From assembly GCA_023250035.1 (NCBI GenBank), contig JAHFBK010000006.1, positions 1 through 36,192 of the forward strand: 36,192 bases of DNA, written 5' to 3'. Every line of letters begins with the position of its first letter. Position 1 is the stretch's first letter. The notes under the pieces were generated by a model. It had not been told where the DNA came from. It saw only the letters and a program-made list of their open reading frames with translations, and searched no databases. The translations under genes were made by a program, and so were the position numbers. The DNA is from Candidatus Dadabacteria bacterium. GTDB taxonomy: Bacteria; Desulfobacterota_D; UBA1144; Nemesobacterales; CSP1-2. Positions 484 through 28,928 of the stretch are shown in pieces.

Positions 484-3400
484 TTATACCTTTGCCTCCA
501 CCATTTGCTTTCTTTTCTCACGCCGAGCTTCAATCTTGTTGTATAAAGTTGGAATAACAACCAGATTCAAAAAAGTTGAGGTAAAGAGACCTCCCAGAAG
601 CACGATTGCTAGTGGTCTCTCAATCTCCTTACCGGTCGGCTCTCCAATAAGAAGAGGGATAAGACCGAGTGCAGCAACAGAGGCTGTCATTAATATAGGA
701 TTCAGTCGGTCAAGTGAGCCCTGGATAATAGTGTCGCGTAGAGACAGCCCTTTTTCCTTCTGCAATTGGCTGTAATGCGTTACGAGAATAACTCCGTTAC
801 GTGTTGCAATTCCAAATAGGGTTATAAAACCAATTAGCGAAGGTATACTCAGTTCCCCTCCTGTGAGAAAAACAGCATAAACACCACCAATAAGGGCAAG
901 AGGAAGATTAACCATTACCATTACGGATTCACGTGCACTTCCAAAAGCCTGATAGAGCATCATAAAAATTCCGAGTATCGCCACAATCCCGAAGATTGTA
1001 AGAACCTTTGTTGCCCGCTGCTGGCTTTCAAACTGACCGCCGTATTCAATAAAGTAGTCCGAAGAAGGTAGTTTTACCTGAGATTCAATTTTTTGTTTAG
1101 CCTCGGTAATGACGCTATTCAGGTCACGACCGGCAACGTTAAATTGAACTACTATGCGACGTTGAACCTGCTCACGATTTATTGTGTAGGGACGATTTTC
1201 GATATGTATATCAGCAACCTCACGAAGAGGAATCTTTGCCCCTGTTGGGGTATCAATGAGGATATTCTTGGTAGCCTCAATGTTATTTCTCGATTCTTCA
1301 TTAAGTCGAATAAAGAGGTCAAAAGTCCTCTGGCCTTCTAGTACCTGTGAGACTGCAGTGCCGTTTAATGAGGTTTCTGTGATCTCTGCTAAGTCCCCAA
1401 CATTAAGTCCGTATCGAGCGGCTTTCTCACGGTCATATTTAACGACAACTTGAGGAACATCAATCTGCTGCTCTAGTTGTAAATCCTCAACCCCTTTTAC
1501 TGTCTCTATAATGTCTCTCACTTGTTTGCCGAGGGTTCGTAATTTCGTTAGGTCAGGACCGTAAATCTTAATAGCGACCTGCGCACGGACGCCTGAAAGC
1601 ACTTCATCCATCCTGTGAGAGATAAACTGGCCGACATTTACCGCAACCCCAGGAATTTCTCCTAGTTCAGAGCGAATTGCACTTAGTAAATCATCAGCCG
1701 GCCTCTTTCCATACTTGATTGTCAGGTCAAACTCGCTGAAATTAGGCGGCTGTGCATCCTCATCAAGTTCTGAACGTCCTGCCCTCTGTGCTACTGAGAC
1801 AATCTCTGGATACTTCGATTTATCACCGAGGTTTTCTCTAATTACTGACCCAAGTCGCATTGATTCCTGTAGTGATGTTCCGGGCAATGTACTCAGAGCT
1901 ATAATGAAGTTACCCTCACGAAACTCCGGCAGAAATGAGCGCCCAAAGAATGGAAGCATTGCAAGTGCTCCAATAAGTAAAATTAAAGACGCACCAACTA
2001 CTAAGTAAAAACGCTTAAGTGACTGACTTAGAACACGCTCGTAGATTTTTTTGAGAAAACGTACCAACGTACTTTCTTTTTCTACCTCATGACTAGAGTC
2101 TTCACTATTGCCTGAGCCGGAATTCCCCGGTGTGCCTGATGGATTTCCCGGATTGCTTAGGGCAGCCTCCGGCTGTAGTAATGGCACTCCTGCTTGAGCC
2201 AATTCCCTCTCATGTTCCCTCTCATATTTACGTGTAAGAAGCAAATAACAAAGCACAGGGGTTGTTGTTACAGCCACAAGTAATGAACAAAGGACACTCG
2301 CTATGAATGCAATCCCAAGTGGGGTAAAAATCCTTCCTTCAAGACCAGAGAGTAAAAACACAGGGAAAAAGGCAATGATGATAATGAATGTGGCGTAGAC
2401 AATAGAGTTTCGGATCTCGGTTGAACCTTTAAAGACAACGCTAAGCACAGGTCCAGGATGGGGTAAGGCACGGTTAAGGCGCAATCTCCTAAAGACATTT
2501 TCCACATCTATGATTGCATCATCAACAACAATACCTATGGCAATAACAAGTCCTCCAAGCGTCAATGCATTAATCCCGAGACCAAAGGCTTTTAGAACCA
2601 TTAAACCCGCAAGAAGCGATAGTGGCATAGCAAGAAGGCTTATAAAAGAGGCACGGAAATTATAAAGGAATAAAAAGAGAATCACTGTTACTATGACTCC
2701 GCCCTGCCAGAGAGCACCTTTAAGATTTTTAATCGCGGATTCAATGAAGTCCGCTTGCCTGAAAACGCGATAGTTCATATTAACTCCCTCTGGCAGTCTG
2801 GCTTTAATCTCCTCAAGGGCTTTTTCAACCTTATGTGTTGCGGTTAAGGTATCGGCACCATAAGCCTTTGAAATCGTGCCAATAACGGCGGGTTCATTCA
2901 TAAAAGCACCGTCTCCACGCTTTATCTCAGGACCGAGCTTAACTTCAGCCAACTGGCTGAGGGTAATAGGAGTTCCATCATGAACGGATACCACAGTTCT
3001 TCTTAAGTCATCCAGAGTGGTAATTCGTCCAACCCCTGTGATGGCAAACTCTGCACCACCTCGATATAGAAAACCCCCCGGGACATTTACGTTTGATTTT
3101 TCTACGGCCTCTTTTACCCGAGCCAGACTCACATCAAATGCACGTAGCTTTAAGGGATCAACTAGGACTTGATACTGCTTAACTTCCCCTCCAATAGAGA
3201 CCACGGAAGCTACTCCTCCAATTGCAAGAATCCTAGGGCGGATTTGCCAGTCTGAGATTGTACGGAGATCCATCGGAGAAAGTGTGTCGCTCGTTAAGCT
3301 GTATTTGACCATCCAGCCTACGGCAGAGGTAACGGGGAGCATTACAGGCGGTTCTGTACCCGGAGGAAACCGATTTTGTACCGACTGTATACGCTCATTT

Positions 3401-3729
3401 ACAAGCTGACGAGCCGTATAGATATTGGTACCCCATTTAAAGACAATAATTACAGTTGAAAGACCTACAGAGGATGATGAGCGAACAGTATCAATGCCTG
3501 GTGTACCGTTTACCGCACTCTCGATTGGAAAAGTGATTAGTGCTTCTACATCCTCAGGTGAGAGTCCCGGCGCCTCAGTTTGAACTACGACCTGTGGCGG
3601 TACAAACTCAGGAAAAACGTCTACAGGCATCTTTGTGGTAAGATATATCGAAGTGCCAAAGAAAATAAGAGTGGCAACGACAATTAATAACTTATTATTT
3701 AGTGACCACCTGATTATTGCGTTAAACAT
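484..3729 (-). CDS. Heavy-metal-type RND efflux pump, inner-membrane permease (CzcA/CusA family)
   Basis: This 1081-residue protein has normal length for the heavy-metal RND family, the proton-driven inner-membrane engine of a tripartite exporter. TM1 is at about 13-30, followed by MPVDVFPEFVPPQV, the usual family start. TM4 (391-410) reads AIGIVVDDAIIDVEN, with D403, D404, D408 and E410. CzcA proper carries an extra DFG aspartate six residues before D403; here that position is Ala, so the TM4 pattern is closer to CusA-like or unassigned heavy-metal pumps. The cytoplasmic loop at about 530-565 is a Pro/Gly/Ser/Asn-rich linker before TM7. The gene starts 3 bp after the adaptor stop (TGA TAG ATG). 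Exported ion unknown: the neighbouring CDF gene favours a divalent cation, which is inference. Confidence 0.93.
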   Translation of the reverse strand: MFNAIIRWSLNNKLLIVVATLIFFGTSIYLTTKMPVDVFPEFVPPQVVVQTEAPGLSPEDVEALITFPIESAVNGTPGIDTVRSSSSVGLSTVIIVFKWGTNIYTARQLVNERIQSVQNRFPPGTEPPVMLPVTSAVGWMVKYSLTSDTLSPMDLRTISDWQIRPRILAIGGVASVVSIGGEVKQYQVLVDPLKLRAFDVSLARVKEAVEKSNVNVPGGFLYRGGAEFAITGVGRITTLDDLRRTVVSVHDGTPITLSQLAEVKLGPEIKRGDGAFMNEPAVIGTISKAYGADTLTATHKVEKALEEIKARLPEGVNMNYRVFRQADFIESAIKNLKGALWQGGVIVTVILFLFLYNFRASFISLLAMPLSLLAGLMVLKAFGLGINALTLGGLVIAIGIVVDDAIIDVENVFRRLRLNRALPHPGPVLSVVFKGSTEIRNSIVYATFIIIIAFFPVFLLSGLEGRIFTPLGIAFIASVLCSLLVAVTTTPVLCYLLLTRKYEREHERELAQAGVPLLQPEAALSNPGNPSGTPGNSGSGNSEDSSHEVEKESTLVRFLKKIYERVLSQSLKRFYLVVGASLILLIGALAMLPFFGRSFLPEFREGNFIIALSTLPGTSLQESMRLGSVIRENLGDKSKYPEIVSVAQRAGRSELDEDAQPPNFSEFDLTIKYGKRPADDLLSAIRSELGEIPGVAVNVGQFISHRMDEVLSGVRAQVAIKIYGPDLTKLRTLGKQVRDIIETVKGVEDLQLEQQIDVPQVVVKYDREKAARYGLNVGDLAEITETSLNGTAVSQVLEGQRTFDLFIRLNEESRNNIEATKNILIDTPTGAKIPLREVADIHIENRPYTINREQVQRRIVVQFNVAGRDLNSVITEAKQKIESQVKLPSSDYFIEYGGQFESQQRATKVLTIFGIVAILGIFMMLYQAFGSARESVMVMVNLPLALIGGVYAVFLTGGELSIPSLIGFITLFGIATRNGVILVTHYSQLQKEKGLSLRDTIIQGSLDRLNPILMTASVAALGLIPLLIGEPTGKEIERPLAIVLLGGLFTSTFLNLVVIPTLYNKIEARREKRKQMVEAKV

Positions 3730-3732
3730 CTA

Positions 3733-4713
3733 TCATTCTCTCTCTTCCAATCCACCACCGAGTAACCACTTTGTGTAAATTTGACGATTCCCATCTGTGA
3801 CTACCTGATCTCCGGGATAAAGACCATCGGTAATTTCAACGTAGCGGTCATCGCTCACTCCGGTAGCGACATCCTGACGGACGAATTGGTTTCCGTTCTT
3901 TACAAATACGAATTTTTCTGCACCATCATCAATTATCGCCTCTACAGGGACAGTCAAGGCCTCCCTGCTATGCTCAATAACAAGAGCAACTCTAGCAAAA
4001 AGCTCAGGCTTGAGTAACCCTTCCTTGTTATCTACCGAAACCCAGAGGTGTAGAGTGCGCTTCATCGGATCAAGCTCACTTGCAACAAATATTACTTTTC
4101 CAGTAAAAATCTTGTTTGGATAAGCATCTAGCCTTACACGCGCATTTTGACCTATTTTCACCTTAGAAACATCACTTTCAAATACGTCACCCTCAACGAT
4201 TACCTTTGATAAATCCACTATATGAAAAAGATGTTTATTAGGCTCTACAGCTTCGCCAAGTACAACGCTTCTTTCCACAACGGTACCAGAAATTGGAGCC
4301 GTAACTGTGACCACTGGGGGTGGATTTCCAAGTTGCCTTGACTGAATGTCAACCAGTTTCTGACCTTTTTGAACCCGGTCTCCAAGCGAGGCATAAAGCT
4401 TTTCAATTCGACCCTCTATCCGGGTACTTACCTCAGCCACCCTGTTGGGGTCAGGCTTTACTATGCCGCTGATTACCAGCACTTCTTCCACTTGCCTTAT
4501 ATCAGCTTCAACTACTTTAAGCCCTATGCTTTTTTGAGCAATCTCTGAAAGTTCAACGCCGGCACTGTTAGAAGTAGGACTACCTCCCTTCTTTTCCCCA
4601 CCCAACTGTTCTTCGTCATGCCCGTAGACGAGCCGTGATTGTGTCATCGTTAGAATCAACACAAAAAAAATGGTAAAAAGTGAGATAAAAATTTTCTTTC
4701 TTTCGATTTTCAT
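3733..4713 (-). CDS. RND periplasmic adaptor without an alpha-hairpin
   Basis: This 326-residue membrane-fusion protein should link the RND pump to the TolC channel in the periplasm. A signal peptide or anchor spans 1-31, followed by GHDEEQ. The first lipoyl half is at about 95-125 (RIEGRIEKLYASLGDRVQKG). The second half starts at about 137 (TAPISGTVVERS), and beta-barrel and membrane-proximal domains follow to the end. Normally 60-100 residues of coiled alpha-hairpin separate the two lipoyl halves; here only about 10 residues (RQLGNPPPVV) do. The reading frame is intact, so this is a natural short form rather than a frameshift. The ATG overlaps the CDF stop by 4 nt (ATGA), which points to translational coupling. 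Confidence 0.9.
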   Translation of the reverse strand: MKIERKKIFISLFTIFFVLILTMTQSRLVYGHDEEQLGGEKKGGSPTSNSAGVELSEIAQKSIGLKVVEADIRQVEEVLVISGIVKPDPNRVAEVSTRIEGRIEKLYASLGDRVQKGQKLVDIQSRQLGNPPPVVTVTAPISGTVVERSVVLGEAVEPNKHLFHIVDLSKVIVEGDVFESDVSKVKIGQNARVRLDAYPNKIFTGKVIFVASELDPMKRTLHLWVSVDNKEGLLKPELFARVALVIEHSREALTVPVEAIIDDGAEKFVFVKNGNQFVRQDVATGVSDDRYVEITDGLYPGDQVVTDGNRQIYTKWLLGGGLEERE

Positions 4714-5711
4714 TTGTTATAGTCCTCTTCTGCTTGATTAAAATATTGCGAACGTGTTGGTAAGTCGTCACGAGCGTGCTCAAAGACTCGATGATGTACT
4801 TCTCCATTTTCGTCTATGGGATCAACATGAATAATCGCATTACCAAGATGAGGTAGATGATGTAAGAGCTGATGGTGTACTTCTTTAGCTATTTTATGTC
4901 CCTCTGCAACTGAAAGAGTTGGCTCTACAGAAATATTTACTTCTGCATGTAGGCGATGGCCAATCCATCGTGCCCGCACTTCACTAACTCCAACGACACC
5001 TTCAACATGGCCTGACGTATGCTTTATCTCTTCTAGTGTGTCATGATCCACACCATCGAGCATACGAATGAAAACCGCTTTTCCTGACTCCCATACAATC
5101 CAGAGAATAGCAACAGTAATCAAAAGACCCACGAGTGGGTCTGCCAGTGGATAACCAAACCAAACGCCTAACGCGCCAAATAGTACTGCTAAACTAGTCC
5201 AACCATCTACCCGAGCATGGTAGCCATCTGCAACTAGAGCGGCACTTCCAATCTCTTTGCCGACCTTAATGCGAAAAATAGCAACTGCTTCATTGCCAAG
5301 AAAGCCAATTATAGATGCTGCAATAACTGCCCACAGGTACTCTACTTTTCTTGGATGAATTAGACGGTCAATCGCCTCATATCCAGCAACAATAGCACTA
5401 GACAGGATAATTAGCACTATAACCACGCCTGCTAGGTCCTCAACTCTGCCCAAACCATAGGGATATCGTCTACTTGGTTTTAACCTTACAAGCACAAAGG
5501 CAACCCAAAGTGGAACCGCTGTAGCCGCATCACCAAAATTGTGAATTGTATCTGCTAAGAGTGCCACGCTACCTGAAAGCAAGACGACAACGATCTGAAC
5601 CAATGCAGTTACAAACAACCCCACAAACGACCACTTTATTGCCCAAATCCCACGCTGGGAAGTAGCTATAGCGGGGTCAAACAATCCGTGGGTATGAGCA
5701 TGACTATTCAT
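4710..5711 (-). CDS. Cation diffusion facilitator (CDF) transporter
   Basis: This is an inner-membrane metal/proton antiporter of the CDF family, with about six TM segments and a C-terminal cytoplasmic domain. TM2 carries HNFGD and TM5 carries HARVD, the paired HxxxD metal site typical of Zn/Co/Cd-type members. The N-terminus (NSHAHTHG) and C-terminus (HHQLLHHLPHLG) are His-rich. Two starts are possible. ATG 5729 overlaps the TolC-gene stop (TAATG) but has no ribosome site. ATG 5711 has AAGAGGA 5-6 nt upstream, so I chose it (333 aa). The gene lies between the TolC channel and the adaptor of operon 1. It would feed the periplasm with cytoplasmic metal for the RND pump, a pairing known for Czc systems. 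Confidence 0.92.
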   Translation of the reverse strand: MNSHAHTHGLFDPAIATSQRGIWAIKWSFVGLFVTALVQIVVVLLSGSVALLADTIHNFGDAATAVPLWVAFVLVRLKPSRRYPYGLGRVEDLAGVVIVLIILSSAIVAGYEAIDRLIHPRKVEYLWAVIAASIIGFLGNEAVAIFRIKVGKEIGSAALVADGYHARVDGWTSLAVLFGALGVWFGYPLADPLVGLLITVAILWIVWESGKAVFIRMLDGVDHDTLEEIKHTSGHVEGVVGVSEVRARWIGHRLHAEVNISVEPTLSVAEGHKIAKEVHHQLLHHLPHLGNAIIHVDPIDENGEVHHRVFEHARDDLPTRSQYFNQAEEDYNK

Positions 5712-5728
5712 TGCTATCCTCTTACGCA

Positions 5729-7042
5729 TTATTTAGTATTATTAGCATTAAAAGTAATCGTGCTTGGGTAGTTCCCGGTTGCTATTTGAAGATCATTTAG
5801 TGCAATTTGATAATCACGAACTGTATTAATGTAAGATGAGGTCAACGTGGCAAACTGCTGACGAGACTGTATAACCTCAGCAATTCCTACCAACCCCTGT
5901 TTGTAGCCACCTTCAACCAGCTTTACATTGTCCTCCGCCGTTTTCAAAATTCCCGACTGGTAAGTCTCTAAAAGAGCCGATAGTGTAGTCACCCGGTTTA
6001 GTGCGTCATTTACCTCCTGACCGATCTCTAGCTTTAAAGCCTCGACGCTTTCTTCTGCTCTTCTTTCGCGGGCACGCGCTTCAGCAATAAGGCCCTGTTT
6101 ACGGTCGAAGAAAGGAAGTGGAATAGTCAGTCTAAAACCGAGAAACTGATCTGTGTTGGGAATTTCACCTTCAGGTATATCAAGGACACCTCGATCACGT
6201 TCATAGAAAATCCCTGCTATAATATCTTCAAATCGCAAGGCTCTAGCTAGACCTAAATCCGCTCTGGCTAGCTCGATATTAAGCTCTTCAAATCTTAAAT
6301 CCGGTCTTTGTGCAAATGCCGTTTCAACACTGTACCCAGTTAAATCCTTTGGAGCTTCGTATTCGAAACTTCCCTGTGGTAATAAGGAAAAGGTAGACGG
6401 CTTGCCCAGAAGCTTATTTAATTCAAGGATCTTACTTTTTCTCTGAGCTATAAGGACTTCCTTTTCTTGCCTTGCTTGTTGTAGAGCGATAGATACGGCG
6501 TTAAGGTCTTTTTCTGAAGCGAGTCCCTCTTTAATACCAGCCTTGATTGCTCCAACTAGCTCGTTATTTAAACTAATTAATGTATCTTGTAGTTTAATTT
6601 GTTCATTAATTGCTAGAAGCTCAGTAAAAACACGACGGACGTCCCTTACTAATCCACGCTCCAGATCGGCAAGGTCGGCAAACGTTCTTTTAATGTCCAC
6701 ACGGACTACTCTTTTTTGAGCACCTATTCGACCGCTTAAGGGAAGCGGTTGAGAAATACCCGCTGAAAATGCTCGCTCACCTTCATTGGCAAAAAGAGAG
6801 TCAAAAATAAAATCAGATTCCAGGGCTGGATTAGGAAAAACTCCAGCCTGTACCAACCTCCCTCTGGCTTCTTCCACCTGTATTCGTGCTGCCCTCAGAT
6901 CACGATTCTCCATGAGGGCAATATCCACCGCCTGATCAATCGTTAAACTTTTAATTGATTCTTCCGCATCTGAGACAGAAGCAAAAAAGCCAGTTAATAA
7001 TCCTGTAACAACTACGATGAGTGTAGCAAATAATGTTCTCAT
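5729..7042 (-). CDS. TolC-family outer-membrane efflux channel of operon 1 (CzcC-like)
   Basis: This 437-residue outer-membrane efflux protein has the usual length for CzcC/CusC-type channels. A signal peptide spans about 1-27 (hydrophobic core, then SVSDA before EES). Two repeated outer-membrane-efflux domains follow, at roughly 33-215 and 245-430. Each is rich in long helices (AVDIALMENRDLRAARIQVEEARG; EARARERRAEESVEALKLEIG) and contains the family word NPALESDF. It should form the trimeric exit duct for the adaptor and RND pump downstream. The ATG lies 7 bp after the stop of the 46-residue small ORF, so the two are probably co-translated. Only a weak AGGGG ribosome site precedes it. Confidence 0.92.
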   Translation of the reverse strand: MRTLFATLIVVVTGLLTGFFASVSDAEESIKSLTIDQAVDIALMENRDLRAARIQVEEARGRLVQAGVFPNPALESDFIFDSLFANEGERAFSAGISQPLPLSGRIGAQKRVVRVDIKRTFADLADLERGLVRDVRRVFTELLAINEQIKLQDTLISLNNELVGAIKAGIKEGLASEKDLNAVSIALQQARQEKEVLIAQRKSKILELNKLLGKPSTFSLLPQGSFEYEAPKDLTGYSVETAFAQRPDLRFEELNIELARADLGLARALRFEDIIAGIFYERDRGVLDIPEGEIPNTDQFLGFRLTIPLPFFDRKQGLIAEARARERRAEESVEALKLEIGQEVNDALNRVTTLSALLETYQSGILKTAEDNVKLVEGGYKQGLVGIAEVIQSRQQFATLTSSYINTVRDYQIALNDLQIATGNYPSTITFNANNTK

Positions 7043-7049
7043 TTAACCC

Positions 7050-7190
7050 CTAACCTCTTTTGGCATAAAGGGACAATTCCTTTACGTTATCCTGCGCAGC
7101 TTTTAATGGAAATGGCAAAAGATAAATTAACAGACTATGTATAATACCGATTTCCCAAAGTATTTTTTTACCCTTATCTATTGTCCCCAT
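7050..7190 (-). CDS. Small hydrophobic ORF (46 aa) ahead of the TolC gene
   Basis: An ATG at 7190-7188 follows a textbook ribosome site (AGGAGG, 8-9 nt upstream) and the frame ends at TAG 7052-7050. The peptide begins MGTIDKGKKILWEIGIIHSL, has a hydrophobic stretch at about residues 9-30, and a charged C-terminus (KELSLYAKRG). It could be a small membrane protein or a leader peptide. It lies between the conserved structured spacer and the TolC gene, 7 bp from the latter, and probably couples translation into it. No homologous family is recognised. In operon 3 the equivalent place is taken by the helical secreted protein, which it does not obviously resemble. Confidence 0.6.
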   Translation of the reverse strand: MGTIDKGKKILWEIGIIHSLLIYLLPFPLKAAQDNVKELSLYAKRG

Positions 7191-7224: not shown

Positions 7225-7338
7225 AAAGGATTTAATCGTTACCCCAACCTCGGCTATAAGATGTCGTATTGAAATTAAAGATAGTTATACGCTTTAGAGG
7301 CTATACCACTTAAGCAGAGGTAGAACTATAGATCGGAA
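7225..7338 (-). promoter_or_regulatory. Conserved structured spacer, copy A
   Basis: This spacer after the HPPD-1 gene is clearly similar to 28394-28500, which follows the paralogous gene in operon 3. Shared blocks include GGCTATACCACTTAAGCAGA (one T fewer in copy B) and the aaaggattta block. Arms 7247-7254 and 7314-7321 pair with one mismatch (ACCTCGGC with GCAGAGGT) and enclose about 60 nt. Such conservation between two non-coding spacers suggests an RNA element, for example an attenuator, mRNA-processing site or metal-responsive leader. The function is unknown. Confidence 0.5.
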
Positions 7339-7722
7339 TTATAGTAAAAGAGAGGAATTTGCTATGAATAAATCAGGTGGATGATGGTCCTTTATTCCAA
7401 GGTTTAAGGGAACACTAGGAAAATTTCTAATTTCTAAAGTTGGCAAATTAAAAACTACGGAATATGAAATTAATTCTTTAGGATTTAAGTCATGACCATG
7501 GGGTGCGTTAGGTAGTGCGTACTCGCACATGCAGATATTATGCTCAGCAGTTTCTTTGCTTTTGTAGGAATTTGCTTCAGCTTCGCTGCCGGAAATCTCA
7601 TCATGATGGTTTGTACGGGAATTAGTTATGTCCGGGAGAGTATCTGAATGATAGACATTCTCACCAAGCCCAATACGGCAGAGAACTACAATAAGAATCA
7701 ATATAAGGCTTGTGTATTTCAT
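7339..7722 (-). CDS. Short secreted HPPD-motif protein, copy 1 (first gene of efflux operon 1)
   Basis: This 127-residue protein begins with a signal peptide (MKYTSLILILIVVLCRIGLG). The middle is His/Ser-rich, followed by MCEYALPNAPHGHD, a beta-like segment ending PTLEI, and the C-terminus DHHPPDLFIANSSLLL. It is paralogous to the protein at 28501-28884: same length, with shared MC..ALPNAP, LPTLEI and HHPPDLF..NSS.LL. Both head a metal-efflux operon. Short secreted proteins of this general shape are often the first gene of heavy-metal operons (recollection, not a search). His, Met and Cys residues suggest metal binding or sensing in the periplasm, which is inference. There is no Shine-Dalgarno, and a good promoter -10 lies only 12 nt from the ATG. 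Confidence 0.8.
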   Translation of the reverse strand: MKYTSLILILIVVLCRIGLGENVYHSDTLPDITNSRTNHHDEISGSEAEANSYKSKETAEHNICMCEYALPNAPHGHDLNPKELISYSVVFNLPTLEIRNFPSVPLNLGIKDHHPPDLFIANSSLLL

Positions 7723-7733
7723 ATTTTTTGTAA

Positions 7734-7761
7734 AGTATAGCTACCTGTATTTCAAAGTCAA
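7734..7761 (-). promoter_or_regulatory. Sigma70-type promoter, near-leaderless, for efflux operon 1
   Basis: TTGACT (7761-7756), a 16-nt spacer and TATACT (7739-7734) face the HPPD-1 gene. The predicted transcription start (about 7727) is only about 5 nt from the ATG at 7722, and no ribosome site is present, so the mRNA may be leaderless. Confidence 0.6.
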
Positions 7762-20301: not shown

Positions 20302-20664
20302 TTATCTTTGCATCTCTTGATCAGCCATTTTCCGATGTTCAGCTGCCAAGTTTTTATATCCTTGAGCCATTTCCATGTACTTCTTTGATTGACCTGAGTA
20401 ATTCTTTGCAAGCCCAAGTAATGGCTTATCCCTATTTGCGCATGAGTCAGCCATAGAGGCATAAAAACGTGCCTTTTCCTCGTCCTTTTTAGCCTGCTTA
20501 TCAAAGTAATCTGCAATCTTCAGGTGATCCTCTGGGGAAGTAGCTGTCTGTATAAGTATAATAATCTCCTCTTCCTCAGAGGTCAAACCAGAGACTTCTC
20601 TTATAAAAGAGAAAAGAAGGAGTGGTAATAATAAAACTATGCTTAAAAGTGTTAATTTTTGCAT
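20302..20664 (-). CDS. Small secreted helical protein, PEDH family, copy 2
   Basis: This 120-residue protein has a signal peptide (1-26) followed by almost continuous amphipathic helix. It is rich in Lys, Glu, Ala and Met and has a TSPEDHLKIADYFDKQA motif and KPLLGLAKNYSGQSKKYMEM near the middle. It is paralogous to the 120-residue protein at 27949-28311, sharing the same length, (T/S)PEDHxKIAxYxxxQA, KPLLGLAK and a Met-rich end. Both accompany the Cus-type operon 3. This one lies beyond the operon terminator and has its own strong AAAGGAGG site. A periplasmic metal-binding or chaperone role is inferred from context only; no named family is recognised. Confidence 0.82.
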   Translation of the reverse strand: MQKLTLLSIVLLLPLLLFSFIREVSGLTSEEEEIIILIQTATSPEDHLKIADYFDKQAKKDEEKARFYASMADSCANRDKPLLGLAKNYSGQSKKYMEMAQGYKNLAAEHRKMADQEMQR

Positions 20665-21403: not shown

Positions 21404-24400
21404 TTATCCATTCTCTTTTCCCTCCCTATGTTGTTGCAAACCCCTGCCTTTCCATATCGCGTATATTGCAGGGATTATAAGAAGCGTCAGAATAGTTGAT
21501 GTTACAAGTCCACCGATCATAGGAGCTGCGATTCGCTTCATTACATCCGCTCCAGTGCCGTGACTCCAAAGAAGTGGAAGGAGTCCCAGAATCATTGTCA
21601 TCACAGTCATCATCTTAGGTCTCACCCTCTGCACGGCCCCTTCATCTATCGTTTCAGCCAAATCGTCCCAGTTTTTCATCCTTCCTTCTTTTACTCTCTT
21701 TTCATAAGCGTTGTCGAGATAAATTATCATTACAACCCCGGTTTGAGCCGCAAGGCCTGCGACTGCAATAATACCTACCCAGACTGCTATACTTATGTTG
21801 TAACCGAGTAGATACATTAACCAAACACTACCAACCAATGCAAATGGAACGGAGAGAATAACAATCAGAGTTTCCGTAATACTTCGAAAGTTAAGATAAA
21901 GAAGAACAAAGATTATAAGTAGCGTAATAGGGATTACTATTTTTAATTTCTCCCTAACTCTTAGCAAAAACTCGTATTGACCACTCCACGAGATGTAATA
22001 ACCGGGTGGAAGTTCTACCTTTTCACTTACTACCCGTTTGGCCTCATCAACATAGCCTCCTATATCCCTTCCTCTCATATCAATAAAGACATAAGCTGCT
22101 TTGGAACCATCCTCATTTCGTATCTCAGAGGGTCCCGTCCGCGTCTGAACGTCGGCAAGCTGCTCAAGGGGAACCTGTGCCCCCATGGGTGTAGGAACAA
22201 GAACTCTTTTGAGTTTCTCCACATCATCACGAAGTTCCCTTGCGTACCTAACATTTACCAGATACCTTTCAGGTCCCTCTACGGTCTGTGTTACGCTATT
22301 CCCTCCTATCGCCGCCTCTATTATATCCTCTACGTCTCCGACAGTAAGCCCATAGCGTGCTGCTTCTTCACGTCGGATATTGAAATCGAGATAGTATCCA
22401 CCTGTTACCCTTTCTGCGTAAGCACTTATCGTGCCCGGAACATCTCTTAGAGCAGCCTCTATTTGCTTTCCTATCTCTTCTATTACGTTCAGGTCTTTCC
22501 CGTATATCTTTATCCCTACAGGGGTTCGAATCCCTGTTGTAAGCATATCTGTTCTATTTCTTATAGGCATAGTCCATATGTTTGTAACACCGGGGAATTT
22601 GAGCATACTGTTCATCTCAGCGGTCAGTTCATCCCAAGACATCTTTCTCTGCTCGGGCCAAATAGGCCGGAGGATTTTTTTAATAAACTCAGGTGCCCAA
22701 CCTGAATACCATCTTTTTTGTGAAATCATTCGCCACTCGTCCTCGGACTTTAGGGTTATGGTATTTTCAACCATTGAAAGGGGTGCGGGATCAGTTGGGG
22801 TTTCGGCTCTACCTACCTTGCCAAAAACGGTTTCAACTTCAGGAAATTGACTAATGATTTTATCCTGAATTTGAAGTAACCTTCCGGCTTCTGTAATGGA
22901 GATTCCAGGAGGAGTTATGGGCATGTACATTATGCTCCCTTCGTTAAGGGGAGGCATAAACTCAGAACCCAGCTTAAAAAAGATGGGAATTGTAACCAAT
23001 AAAATAAGAATGGCTACAGCGACGGTTATATTTCTCAACCTTACAACGAGTCTTACTAAAGGCTCATAAACCCGAATTAAAAAACGGCTTATGGGATTTT
23101 TCTTCTCTGAAACAATTTTCCCCCGTATAAGAATCGTTATGAGGGCAGGTGTAAGGGTAATTGAAAGAAGGGCCGCGAAAAACATTCCGAAGGTCTTAGT
23201 GTAGGCTAGAGGCTTAAATAGCCTTCCCTCTTGAGCTTCCAATGTAAAAACAGGAGTGAATGAAACTACTATGACAAGAAGCGCAAAGAATATTGGTTTT
23301 CCAACCTCTTTCGAGGCATCTATCATTACCTTTAGTCTATCCCCAACCCCTCCCTCTTCCTCCCAGTGTTCAAGCCTTTTATGTACGTTCTCAACAAGCA
23401 CAATCGCAGCATCAACCATAGCCCCTATGGCAATTGCAATTCCACCTAGAGACATAATATTGGATGTGAGTTTCATGTAATACATAGGGATGAATGAAAA
23501 AAGTATTGCAAACGGGAGTGTGAATATAATTACAAGCGCAGAGCGGAAATGAAAGAGAAAAAGGATACACACTAGGCTTACGATTATGCTTTCTTCTATT
23601 AGGGTTCGTTTTAGGGTGTCTATAGCTCTTAAAATCAGATTTGACCTATCATAAGTTACGACTAACTTAACCCCTTCAGGAAAGGCAGGCTCTACTTCCT
23701 TTAGTTTCTCCTTTACCCTTTTTATAACGTTAAGCGCATTCTCACCGTATCTCATAACCACGACTCCGCCTAATACCTCCCCCTTTCCATCAAGGTCTAC
23801 AATTCCACGCCGAATATCGGGACCTAGAGTTACATCGGCAATGTCTTTTATAAATACTGGTGTTCCTGTTCCCCTTCCATCCATAGCCACGACGATATTT
23901 TCAATATCATTGAGTGATTTTATATATCCTCTTCCTCTTACGACGTACTCTCTTCCTGTAGCTTCTACCACTCTTCCACCGACATCGTTGTTGCTCATCC
24001 TTATGGATTGAATAACCTTGGTAAGTGTTATGTTATAAGCAAGAAGTTTACTTGGGTCTACGTTTACCTGATACTGCTTTTGGAAACCCCCGATACTTTC
24101 AACCTCTGCAACTCCAGGAACACTTCTAAGCCAGTATCTTAAATACCAATCGTTAAACGAGCGTAGTTCTGCTAAATTGTGCTTACCAGTTTCATCCACG
24201 AGGGCATATTGAAAAACCCATCCTACACCGGTAGCATCAGGCCCAATTACTGGAGTAACCCCTTCGGGGAGTCTTCCCCGGATTCCACTCATATACTCGA
24301 GGACACGGGTCCTTGCCCAGTATATATCCGTCCCATCCTCAAATAGAACATAAACGAAGGAAAAACCGAACATTGATGTTCCTCTTACAACTGTGACCTT

Positions 24401-24631
24401 TGGTGCTGAAAGGAGCGTTGTGACGATAGGGTATGTAATCTGGTCTTCTACCAAATCCGGGCTTCTTCCGGGCCACTCTGTAAAGACTATTACCTGGACA
24501 TCTGAGAGGTCTGGTATTGCATCGAGCGGCACACGTTTTAGCGCCCAGATGCCCCAGACCGTAAGAAAACCAACTATAAGGAAAACAACGAATCTATTTC
24601 GAGAGAAGTATTCAATCGTTTTTTCTATCAT
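21404..24631 (-). CDS. cusA: Cu(I)/Ag(I) RND efflux pump, CusA-like permease
   Basis: This 1075-residue heavy-metal RND permease has the CusA hallmarks RVPLDAIPDLSDVQVI (33-48) and PDATGVGWVFQYALVD (131-146). TM4 reads AIGAMVDAAIVLVEN, with D407 and E414. The copper-binding methionine triad is in place: M570 (YMP), M620 (PLSMVEN) and M688 (WTMPIRN) fit E. coli CusA M573, M623 and M672. This makes Cu(I)/Ag(I) the best-supported substrate in the window. It pumps from the periplasm and inner leaflet, energised by protons, into the CusB/CusC assembly. It follows the CusB-like gene after a 125-bp spacer filled with two palindromic repeats. Confidence 0.95.
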   Translation of the reverse strand: MIEKTIEYFSRNRFVVFLIVGFLTVWGIWALKRVPLDAIPDLSDVQVIVFTEWPGRSPDLVEDQITYPIVTTLLSAPKVTVVRGTSMFGFSFVYVLFEDGTDIYWARTRVLEYMSGIRGRLPEGVTPVIGPDATGVGWVFQYALVDETGKHNLAELRSFNDWYLRYWLRSVPGVAEVESIGGFQKQYQVNVDPSKLLAYNITLTKVIQSIRMSNNDVGGRVVEATGREYVVRGRGYIKSLNDIENIVVAMDGRGTGTPVFIKDIADVTLGPDIRRGIVDLDGKGEVLGGVVVMRYGENALNVIKRVKEKLKEVEPAFPEGVKLVVTYDRSNLILRAIDTLKRTLIEESIIVSLVCILFLFHFRSALVIIFTLPFAILFSFIPMYYMKLTSNIMSLGGIAIAIGAMVDAAIVLVENVHKRLEHWEEEGGVGDRLKVMIDASKEVGKPIFFALLVIVVSFTPVFTLEAQEGRLFKPLAYTKTFGMFFAALLSITLTPALITILIRGKIVSEKKNPISRFLIRVYEPLVRLVVRLRNITVAVAILILLVTIPIFFKLGSEFMPPLNEGSIMYMPITPPGISITEAGRLLQIQDKIISQFPEVETVFGKVGRAETPTDPAPLSMVENTITLKSEDEWRMISQKRWYSGWAPEFIKKILRPIWPEQRKMSWDELTAEMNSMLKFPGVTNIWTMPIRNRTDMLTTGIRTPVGIKIYGKDLNVIEEIGKQIEAALRDVPGTISAYAERVTGGYYLDFNIRREEAARYGLTVGDVEDIIEAAIGGNSVTQTVEGPERYLVNVRYARELRDDVEKLKRVLVPTPMGAQVPLEQLADVQTRTGPSEIRNEDGSKAAYVFIDMRGRDIGGYVDEAKRVVSEKVELPPGYYISWSGQYEFLLRVREKLKIVIPITLLIIFVLLYLNFRSITETLIVILSVPFALVGSVWLMYLLGYNISIAVWVGIIAVAGLAAQTGVVMIIYLDNAYEKRVKEGRMKNWDDLAETIDEGAVQRVRPKMMTVMTMILGLLPLLWSHGTGADVMKRIAAPMIGGLVTSTILTLLIIPAIYAIWKGRGLQQHREGKENG

Positions 24632-24700
24632 TGTTTTTCACCTTTTTATTTTACTAACTATATTTCTTTCCCCTTTTACAATTATTTTCTCCAACTGTAG

Positions 24701-24751
24701 GGGCAGGTCTTGCACCTGCCCTCTTCTTCTGGGCAACCGCAAGGGTTGCCC
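24701..24751. repeat. Twin-hairpin palindromic repeat between cusB-like and cusA-like genes
   Basis: Hairpin one is GGGCAGGT-CTTGC-ACCTGCCC (24701-24721). Hairpin two is GGGCAACC-GCAAG-GGTTGCCC (24731-24751). The outer edges also match (AGGGGCA and TGCCCCT). It begins 5 bp after the cusB-like stop. Such twin palindromes are dispersed repeats in many genomes and may stabilise or attenuate the mRNA between the two pump genes. Confidence 0.65.
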
Positions 24752-24756
24752 CTGCA

Positions 24757-26355
24757 TCATTTAACATTCAAATCAAAACTCTCATTTACGGGTGGTGTTC
24801 CGGGCACAAGAGCACCAACGCCTAGAGTCCATCCCCCACTCACAGGGATATTTAACTCTCCTTCATAGACTCCATCTCCAGCATGTCTTGCGTCACTCGC
24901 GCTCCTCATTTCAGCCATTCCTGGCATTGCAGGCATGAGGATAGTGAATTTAACCTTCGCATCTGTAATCGGCTTACCTTCAGGGTCAGTGAGTTTAAAC
25001 CTGAAAGTAGTTTTTCCTGACTCAGGCGGGTCTGGGTCTGTGGAGAATGAAATCTTAATATCACTTTTCCCTCGCGTCTGATCTCCGCCGACGGCAACAG
25101 CCTCTTCCCTGCCTCCACTTAAAGACTGAAACGCCGCCTTAAGGCGACTTTCAGAGTCTACGAAGAATGCGGCACTTCTTACAACTTGCTCTCCTTCACG
25201 CAGTCCGTCCATTACTTCATAATACCCCTCAGCCTTTTTCCCTACCTTAACTTCCCTTGGGTCGAAGTATCCATCTCCTGAGGCGATAAATACGACTTTC
25301 CTCTCTCCTGTGTCAATTACAGCGTCCTCGGCTACAGAGAGTATCTCGCCCAAGTCGCTTTGGAGAACCACGTTTGCATACATTCCGGGCTTGAGTTTGT
25401 TGTCTGGATTGGGAAATTCAAACCTTACCTTCGCAGTTCTAGTACTTATATCAAGCATGGGGTAGATATACATTACTTTTCCGGTAAATGTTTCACCCGG
25501 ATAGTAGGAGAGCTGAAGTGTTGCTTCCTCTCCCTCTTTAACTAATGGAAGTTCGTACTCATAAACGTTTGCAATTACCCATACTGTTGATAGGTCTGCC
25601 ATTATTAACACATCTTCGTGCTCTGCTACATGCATTCCAGGGAAAAACATTCTTTTAGTTATATACCCGTTCATGTGCGAGTGGATTGTCATATACGTAA
25701 GTGGCTTTCCAGTTTTCTCAATCGTTTTAAGCTCACTTTCTGATATATCCCAGAGACGAAATCTCCTTCGCGTAGCCTCAAGCAGAGAACTAGCACCGGA
25801 TGACACTTCAGGATATGAACTCTTATCGAGCGTATTCTTTGCCTTTAAAGCCAGAAGATACTCCTCCTGGGTCGAAACCAAATCAGGACTATATATTGTA
25901 AAAAGTGGGTCACCGTGTTTTACATACGCTCCTTCATAGATAAACATATCCTTTATCCAACCGCTGAACTTAACATGCACATGTGCTATTTTTCTCTCAT
26001 CCGCCTCAACAATACCTACGGTTCTTATATTTTTTACCAGTTTTCTAAGAGCAATCTCTTCAGTTTTTATTCCTATTAGTTGTTGTTTCTCTGGGCTTAT
26101 CTCTATACCTACAAACTCGGAGGGGATTTGGTTATCCTGCATCTGTCCTTCGGCCCCGCTTTCATTTTGCATCCCCTCCATTCCCTGCATGCCTTGCATT
26201 CCCTGCATCCCTTCCATTTCCTGAGAAGATTCTGTGACTGTGCTTTTTTCTCCGCCCCCTCCTTTTAGCTTCGTTGAGACATAGGAAAAGGCAAAAATTA
26301 GAATAAACAGGGTCACAACTGTCAAGGCTCCCAATTTAATTATCTTTTTTTTCAT
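24757..26355 (-). CDS. cusB: CusB-like RND adaptor with Met-rich segment and C-terminal YtkA-like domain
   Basis: This 532-residue periplasmic adaptor has an N-terminal anchor (8-26) and a methionine-rich stretch at about 47-72 (MEGMQGMQGMQGMEGMQ), which should bind Cu(I)/Ag(I). The CusB-type core has lipoyl halves and a short three-helix arm (LVSTQEEYLLALKAKNTLDK and SLLEATRRRFRLWDISESEL), then a beta-barrel. From about 430 to the end there is an extra immunoglobulin-like domain of the YtkA/FixH type, with LMPAMPGMAEM and VSGGWTLGVGALV. The extra domain adds more methionines and may be a second metal-handling site. The order matches cusCBA operons. Confidence 0.93.
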   Translation of the reverse strand: MKKKIIKLGALTVVTLFILIFAFSYVSTKLKGGGGEKSTVTESSQEMEGMQGMQGMQGMEGMQNESGAEGQMQDNQIPSEFVGIEISPEKQQLIGIKTEEIALRKLVKNIRTVGIVEADERKIAHVHVKFSGWIKDMFIYEGAYVKHGDPLFTIYSPDLVSTQEEYLLALKAKNTLDKSSYPEVSSGASSLLEATRRRFRLWDISESELKTIEKTGKPLTYMTIHSHMNGYITKRMFFPGMHVAEHEDVLIMADLSTVWVIANVYEYELPLVKEGEEATLQLSYYPGETFTGKVMYIYPMLDISTRTAKVRFEFPNPDNKLKPGMYANVVLQSDLGEILSVAEDAVIDTGERKVVFIASGDGYFDPREVKVGKKAEGYYEVMDGLREGEQVVRSAAFFVDSESRLKAAFQSLSGGREEAVAVGGDQTRGKSDIKISFSTDPDPPESGKTTFRFKLTDPEGKPITDAKVKFTILMPAMPGMAEMRSASDARHAGDGVYEGELNIPVSGGWTLGVGALVPGTPPVNESFDLNVK

Positions 26356-26390
26356 TATGTTTACCTCCTCTAGATTTGCTGATAATTAAT

Positions 26391-26418
26391 GTAGAGACAC
26401 ACTGCAGTGCGTCTCTAC
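26391..26418. repeat. 28-bp near-perfect palindrome
   Basis: The left arm GTAGAGACACACTG and right arm CAGTGCGTCTCTAC match in 13 of 14 pairs, meeting at a central CTGCAG. It lies between the CusC-like stop (26440) and CusB-like start (26355). The GTAGAGAC...GTCTCTAC wording is a widespread dispersed repeat. It could be an mRNA stability element within the operon. Confidence 0.65.
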
Positions 26419-26439
26419 TGCTTGTGTTTCTCCTGTTAA

Positions 26440-27822
26440 TCACCTCGTCAAGTCCACCCCGATATTTTCCTCAATCCTTGCCAAAGCCTTTTGATACTCA
26501 GCGAGTTGAGTGTAGTAAGAAAGCTCGAAATTAAAGAGTGTAACAAGGTTGTCTAGGAGTGTAAGGAAATCAACGTTTCCAACCTCATATCCGGCAATTG
26601 CAGACTCGAGTGAGAGAGTGGCTTGTGGGATTATCCCCTTAGAGTAGAGGTCTAAGAGCTTCTCTGAGGTCTTAGCTGTAATGTATTTATCTTTTACGGT
26701 AAAGGATAGATTTAAACTTGTGCTTCTGTATTCTTCTTTCGCTTCTTGAAGTTGGAATACTGATTCTTCGACTCCAAATCTCTCCTTTCTCGAAAAATAA
26801 AGTGGGACTATAAAGCCAACCCTTACTACCCACTCATTGGCAAAGGGACCTTCGTTTGTAAACTTTCCTCGATTAAACCACCCAAATCCTGCTATAAAAT
26901 CAGGGAAATACCCTTTCTTTGCGAGTCCTAAAGCCTGCTCATTTCTTTCGATAAGATTTCCCCTTGCTCTAAGAATTGGACTCTCACTCTCTGTAAGTTT
27001 GTAGAGTTCGTCTAAAGATAGTTGGAGTTCTGACTTTTTCACCTCCTCGGGTTTCCCAAGAGGGGAATCAGGTGGACGACTAAGAATGCTTCTTATCCTG
27101 GCTACTACAACCTCTTTCTTCTGGTTTAAAAGCTCAAGTCTTTCAATAAATCCTGAAACTTCTACCTGAGCTTTTATCACATCCTGCTGTATTCCCCTTC
27201 CAACGGCGTATTTGGCCTCGGCAATCTTTACGAATTTATCAAGAAGTTCCTTATTTTTTGAAGTGACCTCTATTGATTTATTCACTAGATACCAGTCGTA
27301 GTAAGCTTCCTTAAGGTCGGCTGTAACCCTTCTTACTGTAACTTCTAAGAACTGCTCTTCAGCCTCGGCTTCTTCTTTTGCAATTTTACCTTTCAGGGAA
27401 AGCTTACCGGGAAAGGGAAACTCTTGAGAGGCATAAAATTCAAGTTCTGTAAAGTCGTCATCTCCAAGTGTGAGTTTGTTAAAGGTCACATTCTTATAGT
27501 TAACTCCTATTTCGGGATTTGGAAGTGTGCTGACCTGTGAGGGGCGTTTTGTCGACGATTCCCATCTGGCTTTTGACGCTTTTATTTCAGGGTTATTACG
27601 TAATGCTTCTTCAACAAGGGATTTAAGGGGCGTAGCCTCTATTTTATTTCCATCTGATGCACATTGTTTATTACCATTCGTTCCACACTGCGGAACGGAT
27701 AATGCAGCATCAGATACTACCTTTTTATTTCCATCTGATGCAGACTGCGCATCAGATACTACGGCAAAAGCACTAACCCCAGTTAAGGCCATAGTAAGTA
27801 TGAATGCTAGAATGAGTCTCAT
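26440..27822 (-). CDS. cusC: CusC-like TolC-family outer-membrane channel with palindromic insertions
   Basis: This 460-residue outer-membrane efflux protein has a signal peptide at 1-19 (MRLILAFILTMALTGVSAFA). Residues 20-62 are an odd repetitive Ser/Asp/Asn/Gly/Lys linker with VVSDA twice and ASDGNK twice. They are encoded by palindromic DNA (27652-27757). Two efflux domains follow, with ALRNNPEIKASKARWESS and LPNPEIGVNYKN in the first and a second repeat from about 255. It would be the exit duct for the CusB/CusA-like partners. The gene is the first pump component, following the helical secreted protein after a 126-bp spacer. The linker is probably tolerated because it lies at the flexible periplasmic N-terminus. 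Confidence 0.92.
   Translation of the reverse strand: MRLILAFILTMALTGVSAFAVVSDAQSASDGNKKVVSDAALSVPQCGTNGNKQCASDGNKIEATPLKSLVEEALRNNPEIKASKARWESSTKRPSQVSTLPNPEIGVNYKNVTFNKLTLGDDDFTELEFYASQEFPFPGKLSLKGKIAKEEAEAEEQFLEVTVRRVTADLKEAYYDWYLVNKSIEVTSKNKELLDKFVKIAEAKYAVGRGIQQDVIKAQVEVSGFIERLELLNQKKEVVVARIRSILSRPPDSPLGKPEEVKKSELQLSLDELYKLTESESPILRARGNLIERNEQALGLAKKGYFPDFIAGFGWFNRGKFTNEGPFANEWVVRVGFIVPLYFSRKERFGVEESVFQLQEAKEEYRSTSLNLSFTVKDKYITAKTSEKLLDLYSKGIIPQATLSLESAIAGYEVGNVDFLTLLDNLVTLFNFELSYYTQLAEYQKALARIEENIGVDLTR
27652..27757. repeat. Palindromic elements inserted in frame in the CusC-like gene
   Basis: Two units share ATTTCCATCTGATGC and GCATCAGATACTAC ends. Unit one has outer arms ATCTGATGC (27652-27660) and GCATCAGAT (27707-27715) around an inner hairpin CGTTCC-ACACTGC-GGAACG (27679-27697). 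Unit two is ATCTGATGC-AGACTGC-GCATCAGAT (27733-27757). Both preserve the reading frame and encode a low-complexity linker directly after the signal peptide. Their make-up recalls coding palindromic elements such as those of Rickettsia, but no sequence identity is claimed. Confidence 0.65.
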
Positions 27823-27948: not shown

Positions 27949-28311
27949 TCACTGCTTTTGCATCTCCTGAGCCATCTTCATATGTTCCATTGCCATAGCC
28001 TTATAGTCTTTTGCGGCTTCCATATACCTCTTTGAAAGATCAGAGCAGTGTTTAGCAAGCCCAAGTAAAGGCTTACCCCTACTCTTGTACGAATCGGCTA
28101 GAGAGGCGTGGAAACTCGCCTCTTGCTCCATTTTTGCAGCTTGCTTTTCGTAGTACTCTGCAATCTTTATATGATCCTCGGGGGTATTAGCAGTCTCTAT
28201 CATTTTGTCTACATCTTCCTCCTCAGCAGCACCTCCAGGAACCACTCCTATGAAAGAGAAAAGCATGAGGAATACTATCAAAGCTATAACTATTTGTGAC
28301 ATCTTGTTCAT
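27949..28311 (-). CDS. Small secreted helical protein, PEDH family, copy 1 (operon 3)
   Basis: This protein is 120 aa from ATG 28311, the same length as its paralogue at 20302-20664. A signal peptide spans about 1-25 (MNKMSQIVIALIVFLMLFSF). A long amphipathic helical body follows, with NTPEDHIKIAEYYEKQA, HASLADSYKSRGKPLLGLAK and a Met/Lys-rich end (MAMEHMKMAQEMQKQ). The 28311 start has AGGAGG 8 nt upstream. An in-frame ATG at 28359 also has a good site (GGGAGG) and would add 16 residues; the paralogue length favours 28311. It lies between the structured spacer and the CusC-like gene, so a periplasmic metal-related role is inferred. The Met/His-rich end might bind Cu(I). Confidence 0.85.
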   Translation of the reverse strand: MNKMSQIVIALIVFLMLFSFIGVVPGGAAEEEDVDKMIETANTPEDHIKIAEYYEKQAAKMEQEASFHASLADSYKSRGKPLLGLAKHCSDLSKRYMEAAKDYKAMAMEHMKMAQEMQKQ

Positions 28312-28393
28312 TTTTGATACCTCCTTTCTTTTTATAAGCGAATTACTATGCTTAATCATTGTTTGTAACCTCCCTTTTAAAGTTTTATAAAAG

Positions 28394-28500
28394 GATTTAT
28401 TTGGCACTTTACCTCTGCCGGAAAGTATGATAACGATATAAAGATACTGATATGCTTTTAAAGGCTATACCACTAAGCAGAGGTAAGACCAGGGTTGGAA
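28394..28500 (-). promoter_or_regulatory. Conserved structured spacer, copy B
   Basis: This is the counterpart of 7225-7338, in the same place: just after an HPPD gene and before the rest of an efflux operon. Arms TACCTCTGC (28410-28418) and GCAGAGGTA (28477-28485) pair perfectly over 9 bp, enclosing 58 nt. The block AAGGCTATACCACTAAGCAG is nearly identical to copy A. The arms pair better here than in copy A. It may be an attenuator or processing element in the operon mRNA. Function unproven. Confidence 0.5.
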
Positions 28501-28884
28501 TTAAAGTAAAAAGGAGGAATTAGATAAGAATAAGTCAGGTGGATGGTGTTCCTTTATTTCCAAACTAAAGGGAAAACCAGGAACATCATTAATTTCTAAA
28601 GTTGGCAAATTAATAGCTAACGAGCATAAAAGAAGATTTGTTAGATCAAAGTCATGACTAAGAGGGGCATTAGGTAGGGCATCTTGACACATATGTATTT
28701 TATACTTTATTGTGTCGGAATTCTTGTATGAATATGGTATGGTCTTATAACCGGAAAGGTTATCCTGCTTGTTTGAATGGCAGCTCTTCATATTCGGTTG
28801 AGTATGGGAGTTAGCAAAATCTGAACAAATCCCTGTGTAACAAAGAAATGTAGTAAGAATCAAAAGAAAATTTAAATATTTCAT
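28501..28884 (-). CDS. Short secreted HPPD-motif protein, copy 2 (first gene of efflux operon 3)
   Basis: This protein is 127 aa from ATG 28884, exactly the length of its paralogue at 7339-7722. The frame extends up to 28932, but the extra 16 residues lack the signal-peptide start and are not shared, so 28884 is chosen. A signal peptide (MKYLNFLLILTTFLCYTGIC) is followed by a polar His/Ser/Lys region, MCQDALPNAPLSHD, LPTLEI and the C-terminus EHHPPDLFLSNSSFLL. There is no Shine-Dalgarno, and the promoter -10 lies 16 nt upstream, so translation may be near-leaderless as in copy 1. A role in metal sensing, binding or as a regulatory leader of the Cus-type operon is inferred from position. Confidence 0.8.
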   Translation of the reverse strand: MKYLNFLLILTTFLCYTGICSDFANSHTQPNMKSCHSNKQDNLSGYKTIPYSYKNSDTIKYKIHMCQDALPNAPLSHDFDLTNLLLCSLAINLPTLEINDVPGFPFSLEIKEHHPPDLFLSNSSFLL

Positions 28885-28899
28885 GGTTGCTACGCAATT

Positions 28900-28928
28900 A
28901 ATATAACTCTCAAAATTTAAAAAGTAAA
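28900..28928 (-). promoter_or_regulatory. Sigma70-like promoter of efflux operon 3
   Basis: TTTACT (28928-28923), a 17-nt spacer and TATATT (28905-28900) face the HPPD-2 gene. The predicted start lies about 9 nt before the ATG, too close for a ribosome site. This mirrors operon 1, although the surrounding DNA is not similar. Confidence 0.5.

Follow-up and report, generated by a model that had tools for sequence, protein, structure and literature searches.

The HPPD proteins resemble metal sensors that control the genes downstream, switching them on or off during their own synthesis. Two copies are encoded in the window, a 36,192 nt stretch of Candidatus Dadabacteria DNA. We think that HPPD probably acts in cis as a leader ORF, in the manner of CutF and CruR. 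Metal binding would set the time that a ribosome stays over a probable Rho site, with a hairpin or anti-Shine-Dalgarno sequence tuning the output. An earlier note, made from the window alone, had proposed that the leader protein senses metal; our analysis partly supports that proposal. The features concerned are as follows.

7734..7761, minus strand: candidate σ70 promoter of copy 1, predicted from sequence (TTGACT, 16 nt, TATACT; the start codon is ~12 nt further on).
7339..7722, minus strand: HPPD ORF copy 1, the putative leader, 127 aa, with a hydrophobic N-terminus, a CMC motif and a C-terminal HHPPDLFIANSSLLL.
7309..7386, minus strand: C-rich, G-poor tract across the copy 1 stop codon, C minus G = 15 in 78 nt; a candidate Rho-utilisation site.
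7228..7338, minus strand: structured spacer copy 1, with an outer stem pairing 7314-7322 with 7246-7254.
7050..7190, minus strand: small secreted-looking ORF of 46 aa, the first gene past spacer 1, with Shine-Dalgarno (SD) sequence AGGAGGT and a homologue in the sister species.
484..7042, minus strand: downstream operon 1, comprising OEP (5729-7042), CDF (4710-5729), MFP (3733-4713) and CzcA/CusA-family RND (484-3729) genes.
28899..28928, minus strand: weak candidate promoter of copy 2, from sequence only (TTTACT, 18 nt, TATATT).
28501..28884, minus strand: HPPD ORF copy 2, the putative leader, 127 aa, with CH and MC motifs and a C-terminal HHPPDLFLSNSSFLL.
28471..28548, minus strand: C-rich, G-poor tract across the copy 2 stop codon, C minus G = 19 in 78 nt, in the top 0.4% of minus-strand windows.
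28393..28500, minus strand: structured spacer copy 2, with an outer stem pairing 28477-28485 with 28410-28418 and an inner hairpin at 28445-28475.
27949..28359, minus strand: helical secreted protein past spacer 2, starting at 28359 or 28311.
21404..27822, minus strand: downstream operon 2, comprising OEP (26440-27822), CusB-like MFP with a YtkA domain (24757-26355) and CusA/CzcA-family RND (21404-24631) genes.

The resemblance between the two loci described in the earlier note was confirmed. The HPPD proteins share the motifs quoted there, with a full-length identity of 45% (E=1.3e-31). The non-coding DNA on the 3' side of each ORF also aligns; the first 72 bases of the spacers are 81% identical (E=1.6e-10), and a 24 nt probe from copy 1 found no chance match in 100 shuffles. 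The proposed pairing arms are present in both spacers. In copy 2 the pairing of UACCUCUGC with GCAGAGGUA is perfect, and in copy 1 UACCUCUGC pairs with GCCGAGGUU with two mismatches. The copy 2 spacer folds better than its shuffles (z=-3.5 to -3.9); the copy 1 spacer, taken alone, does not (z=0.2 to -0.7). As the note had stated, the efflux sets downstream differ. Copy 1 is followed by the 46 aa ORF and OEP, CDF, MFP and CzcA/CusA-family RND genes; copy 2 is followed by the helical protein and OEP, CusB-like MFP and CusA/CzcA-family RND genes. The distance from the HPPD stop codon to the next start codon is 148 nt for copy 1 and 141 nt for copy 2.

Several features of the downstream genes were apparent. 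The 46 aa ORF had no match in Pfam. The helical protein past spacer 2 has weak similarity, below cut-off, to the NCBIfam LIC_10421 family. The 3' arm of the copy 2 outer stem, GCAGAGGTAAAGTG (28405-28418), looks like an SD sequence plus GTG and would lengthen the helical ORF to 152 codons. The sister species lacks a GTG at the position of 28407, so this codon is probably not a start. Related small helical secreted proteins (20302-20664 and 27949-28407) flank operon 2, one before the OEP gene and one after the RND gene. In other genomes, too, their relatives adjoin RND operons, and they show a weak resemblance to LIC_10421 proteins of Leptospira. In operon 2 the CusB-like adaptor (24757-26355, 532 aa) ends in a YtkA-like domain (Pfam E=7e-20). 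In operon 1 the CDF gene (4710-5729) separates OEP from MFP. In the sister species, Candidatus Dadabacteria bacterium CSP1-2 of the same genus, the OEP and MFP genes overlap directly and no CDF gene was detected there (locus L071). Hence, the CDF gene was either gained in the window species or lost in CSP1-2.

The HPPD family was searched for using an alignment of 25 relatives. It is present in 24 of the 44 genomes of one Dadabacteria order and in none of 14 other genomes of the class. Among the remaining genomes of a search covering 387, there was a single match, in genome G098; it is spurious, an unrelated lipoprotein-like resemblance at the N-terminus. CSP1-2 carries both HPPD copies in the same two operons. 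In a tree, each window copy groups with its CSP1-2 counterpart (support 0.98 for copy 1 and 0.82 for copy 2). Thus, the nearest relative of each copy is the same-operon copy of another species, and the pair is not the product of a recent duplication. The pair predates the split of the window species from CSP1-2. The earlier note had seen a duplicated cassette particular to two operons; rather, metal-resistance operons throughout the order usually begin with this cassette.

HPPD is nearly always the first gene of an OEP-MFP-RND operon or lies ahead of a multicopper oxidase gene. In most loci the next recognised gene encodes the RND outer-membrane channel, followed by an adaptor and a CusA/CzcA-family pump. 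The RND channel gene follows ~50-160 nt past HPPD in genera that do not belong to the window's family. Within that family, several members have one or two small secreted genes in this position. In four genomes (G029, G031, G017 and G025) the gene after HPPD is multicopper oxidase-like, as judged from its N-terminus. The one examined, in G031, has three Cu-oxidase domains, with a resemblance to copper_res_A below cut-off. The sequence TTGAC occurs no more than 75 nt upstream of HPPD in 23 of 31 family members, which argues that the HPPD gene is normally promoter-proximal. G006 has a second HPPD copy, interrupted by a stop codon or frameshift (L045, 14635-15108). It precedes a 386 aa protein with no Pfam match (L045, 15227-16387), and a similar-looking 372 aa protein follows the second HPPD copy in G002 (L044, 3501-4619). 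In two plasmid multicopper oxidase neighbourhoods no comparable leader gene is annotated.

Members of the family share a simple anatomy. A short charged N-terminus is followed by a hydrophobic segment; by inspection, this is MK and ~14 hydrophobic residues, and a helix is predicted at residues 2-17 (pLDDT ~80). Most members then have a CH or similar site. A Cys, often a pair, lies 45-55 residues ahead of PP. The pair is CC in most relatives and CXXC in G007; copy 1 has CMC, and copy 2 has CH plus a single MC. The CxxxC of the Rhodobacter capsulatus CutF type is absent from both window copies. The protein ends with the pattern PPDLFxxNSSFLL-stop. The PP (RP in one member) starts exactly 13 residues from the C-terminus in each of the 28 members with this motif, both window copies included. 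A few members without PP keep the NSSFL[LI] tail. Both window copies are 127 aa long and most relatives, as called, are 123-146 aa, which is below the limit of 150 aa for CutF-like proteins. No fold is predicted for the mature part of the chain (mean pLDDT 54, from an alignment of only 25 sequences).

Neither window copy matched a family in Pfam, and profile scans of 25 members gave only weak matches of single members. For DUF2946 (PF11162), none of 46 genomes scored above cut-off and the best HPPD member had E=0.19. The CopL profile (NF033807) gave a best E of 0.035 in one member and nothing in the other 24. HYC_CC_PP (NF047658), presumably, from the family name, a set of small exported Cys/PP proteins beside copper genes, was above cut-off in none of 44 genomes.

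The strongest signal at the RNA level lies at the end of the HPPD ORF. Among the 21 members ending in Leu, the last codon is CTA in 17, where local codon usage would predict 2.5 (p=1e-13). With one copy taken per genus and paralogue the count is 11 of 14 (p=2e-9); the other p-values here count related genomes as independent. CTA is used last even in genomes where it makes up 3-7% of Leu codons. In control genes from the same loci, CTA is last in 5 of 25 Leu cases (Fisher p=7e-5). The base 3' of the stop codon is T in 25 members, A in six and C or G in none (n=31), compared with C or G in 106 of 278 controls (p=1e-6). Synonymous G is avoided over the 15 codons before the stop (mean z=-1.1, compared with -0.07 for 262 control genes; p=9e-8). 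The final Leu codon is CTA in particular and not just any Leu codon that lacks G, with TTA favoured before it (e.g. 7339-7344). The CTATAAT at the end of the ORF was considered as a promoter −10 element and rejected. On inspection, no −35 element lies 16-19 nt away, and members with TGA or TAG as the stop codon do not retain the hexamer.

These positions lie within a C-rich, G-poor tract. From −45 to +30 (78 nt), C minus G averages +15.8 compared with −4.5 in controls (p=4e-19). The core is 5-11% G and 24-31% C, and the tract has sharp edges at approximately −50 and +30 around the stop codon. The tract is predicted to be among the most unpaired parts of the region, and the folded spacer begins at approximately +20. 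C itself is not enriched through synonymous choice (z=0.08); the C-richness is partly forced by the encoded Pro, Ser and His residues, and a C>G skew by itself is no proof of a rut site. Rho is encoded in 41 of the 44 genomes of the order.

The spacers are structured across the family. Over 31 loci the mean folding z is −2.14, compared with −0.59 for 84 other co-directional spacers of the same loci (p=3e-7). Similarity of spacer sequence is limited to the window's family and one genome (G008) of another family. There, the pairing recurs at nine loci of seven genera, so conserved pairing extends beyond the two window copies. The nine loci share the long outer stem and four of its nine pairs are compensated, for example GCUUCUGC/GCAGAAGC and UAUCUCUGG/CCAGAGAUA; shuffles give 1.3, and 7 of 500 reach four. 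The count of four comes from arms aligned by hand, which favours structure, and automatic alignments give three compensated pairs. The covariation term of RNAalifold is approximately zero on the automatic alignment because one sequence is misregistered. In other genera the spacer sequence is replaced by unrelated hairpins and HPPD is kept. Since the sequence turns over between genera while the hairpin persists, the spacer is not one portable RNA motif. Most of the hairpins, on inspection, have no U-run, and they were rejected as intrinsic terminators.

The earlier note had pictured a portable control module in which the hairpin sets readthrough. The combination of a metal-sensing leader and an RNA element fits the wider family data and matches mechanisms studied by experiment in CutF (PMC9973294) and CruR (PMC9426467); the portability of the RNA did not hold. 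A hairpin persists across genera, but the tract at the ORF end is the stronger RNA-level signal. Hence, Rho-dependent control is indicated at least as much as hairpin-controlled readthrough.

We propose the following sequence of events. HPPD would be transcribed first and its product exported co-translationally. While the last 13 codons, from PP to the stop codon, are being read, the Cys and His residues would already be outside the ribosome and could bind metal, probably copper. Binding would alter the stay of the ribosome at the C-terminal PPDLF..NSSFLL-stop segment. The mRNA of this segment and the 30 nt past the stop codon, being C-rich, nearly G-free and largely unpaired by prediction, may act like a Rho-utilisation site. 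A lingering ribosome would deny Rho access and could expose the ribosome-binding site further on. Once the ribosome departs, Rho would be able to terminate transcription within the spacer, where the hairpin may provide a stable, protected 3' end; in the oxidase-linked copies, the hairpin may contribute to masking of the SD sequence. In an efflux operon, metal would be expected to lengthen the stay and turn the pump genes on. A ribosome paused at PP would be short of the spacer and only one at the stop codon would come near it, so the site of arrest is uncertain. On a more speculative and rather doubtful version, the invariant PPDLF..NSSFLL tail and the CTA before the stop codon hold the terminating ribosome on the Rho site. 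The stop codon, not PP, would then be the metal-controlled step of a separate class of arrest peptide.

The closest competitor dispenses with Rho. As in CutF, a post-stop anti-Shine-Dalgarno sequence would mask the next ribosome-binding site, and a ribosome held at the HPPD end would uncover it. In four multicopper oxidase-linked loci, TCTCCA lies directly 3' of the stop codon. In at least two of these loci, and probably in a third, it is complementary to the SD sequence of the next gene, TGGAGA. When the stop region is masked in silico, the SD sequence is freed: its unpaired probability rises from 0.01 to 0.81 in G031 and from 0.03 to 0.63 in G007, where HPPD heads an OEP gene. A few other loci behave likewise. 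Post-stop/SD duplexes are also stronger than swapped pairs (p=0.018). Conversely, the effect pooled over all loci is weak (mean z −0.37, p=0.04). It is absent from both window copies, where the SD sequence is ~130 nt from the stop codon, with no special sequestration predicted. Extended to every spacer, the anti-SD model was only weakly supported. We consider purely translational control possible but unlikely.

Explanations that assign no sensing role to HPPD translation are less probable still. HPPD could be an ordinary periplasmic metal-binding accessory protein, with the hairpin merely adjusting mRNA stability between the first and later genes. The protein is small and exported-looking, carries Cys and His and belongs to metal operons, and first genes are commonly followed by hairpins. 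However, the choice of last codon, the post-stop base, the synonymous depletion of G and the fixed distance from PP to the stop codon are not expected from protein function alone, and the mature part lacks a predicted fold. We regard this explanation as improbable. Least probable of all is that the spacer acts as a metal-sensing riboswitch or as a DNA operator, with HPPD only incidental to it. The stems with compensatory changes in the window's group, and the inner TAGTGGTAT..ATACCACTA dyad, would suit such an element. Against it, Rfam gave no family at gathering score in the window and no relevant match between 7000 and 7800 with E up to 5. A covariance-model search, which the earlier note had suggested, found the element solely 3' of HPPD genes, weak matches aside; an extra match in G020 (E=0.005) was rejected as its sequence has no HPPD-type context. 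Moreover, other genera replace the spacer with unrelated hairpins but retain HPPD. The metal-sensing leader ORF acting over a probable Rho site remains our preferred reading.

This arrangement resembles systems worked out in Pseudomonadota. In Rhodobacter capsulatus, the nascent exported CutF chain binds copper, its completion is delayed at a C-terminal PP, and the ribosome opens a stem masking the next gene (PMC9973294). CutF and CutF-like proteins share with HPPD a length below 150 aa, apparent export, a PP within the last 15 residues, Cys as metal ligand (putative in HPPD) and an intergenic stem-loop, and they head multicopper oxidase or OEP/RND operons. HPPD agrees with the published filters for length, PP position and downstream gene; its N-terminus looks like a signal peptide on inspection. 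It differs from CutF in lacking CxxxC, in having a conserved tail of 11 residues past PP, and in that the window spacer stems do not clearly mask an SD sequence. Dadabacteria are not mentioned for the CutF-like class in the portion of PMC9973294 available.

CruR of Bordetella pertussis is a DUF2946 protein. Copper relieves arrest at its RAPP motif and Rho ends the transcript (PMC9426467); the arrest was confirmed in vitro (PMC12992588). The Rho site of CruR was shown to lie in a C>G bubble over the 3' end of the leader. A CXXC lies 45 residues before RAPP with nearly fixed spacing, the Arg of RAPP is R139 of 145, and the protein is reported to be unstructured (PMC9426467). HPPD likewise has Cys ~45-50 residues before a C-terminal PP, a C>G bubble over the ORF end, a chain predicted to be unstructured and the leading position in its operon. 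Unlike CruR, it has no PF11162 match, has xPPD for RAPP, and has C, CC or CxC and seldom CXXC. The known CruR case also controls uptake rather than efflux, and its PP is almost at the very end, whereas 11 residues follow the PP of HPPD (PMC9426467).

Other small proteins show parts of the same pattern. CopL (NF033807), like HPPD, is a small exported Cys/PP protein beside copper genes, although HPPD falls below the cut-off of its profile. CopL is needed in cis for copA expression, according to PMC9973294. CzcI of Cupriavidus, discussed in the same paper, is the first gene of czcCBA-type operons and is proposed to be a metal-sensing regulator. It is like HPPD in these respects and unlike it in having no C-terminal PP (PMC9973294). 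Given agreement with the CutF-like filters, the negative DUF2946, CopL and HYC_CC_PP profiles and the near absence of CxxxC and CXXC, we call the HPPD family CutF/CruR-like in probable function, with descent undecided. The stop-centred signature is the part without a counterpart in the available portions of the CutF and CruR accounts (PMC9973294, PMC9426467). HPPD is a lineage-specific family with the architecture of CutF and CruR but without a DUF2946, CopL or HYC_CC_PP profile match. The family offers a natural alignment in which differing conservation could set the putative arrest tail apart from the candidate Rho site and from the hairpin. The presence of such a family at the head of most RND metal operons in an order without cultured members suggests that the sensing of metal by nascent chains has spread very far or has evolved repeatedly.
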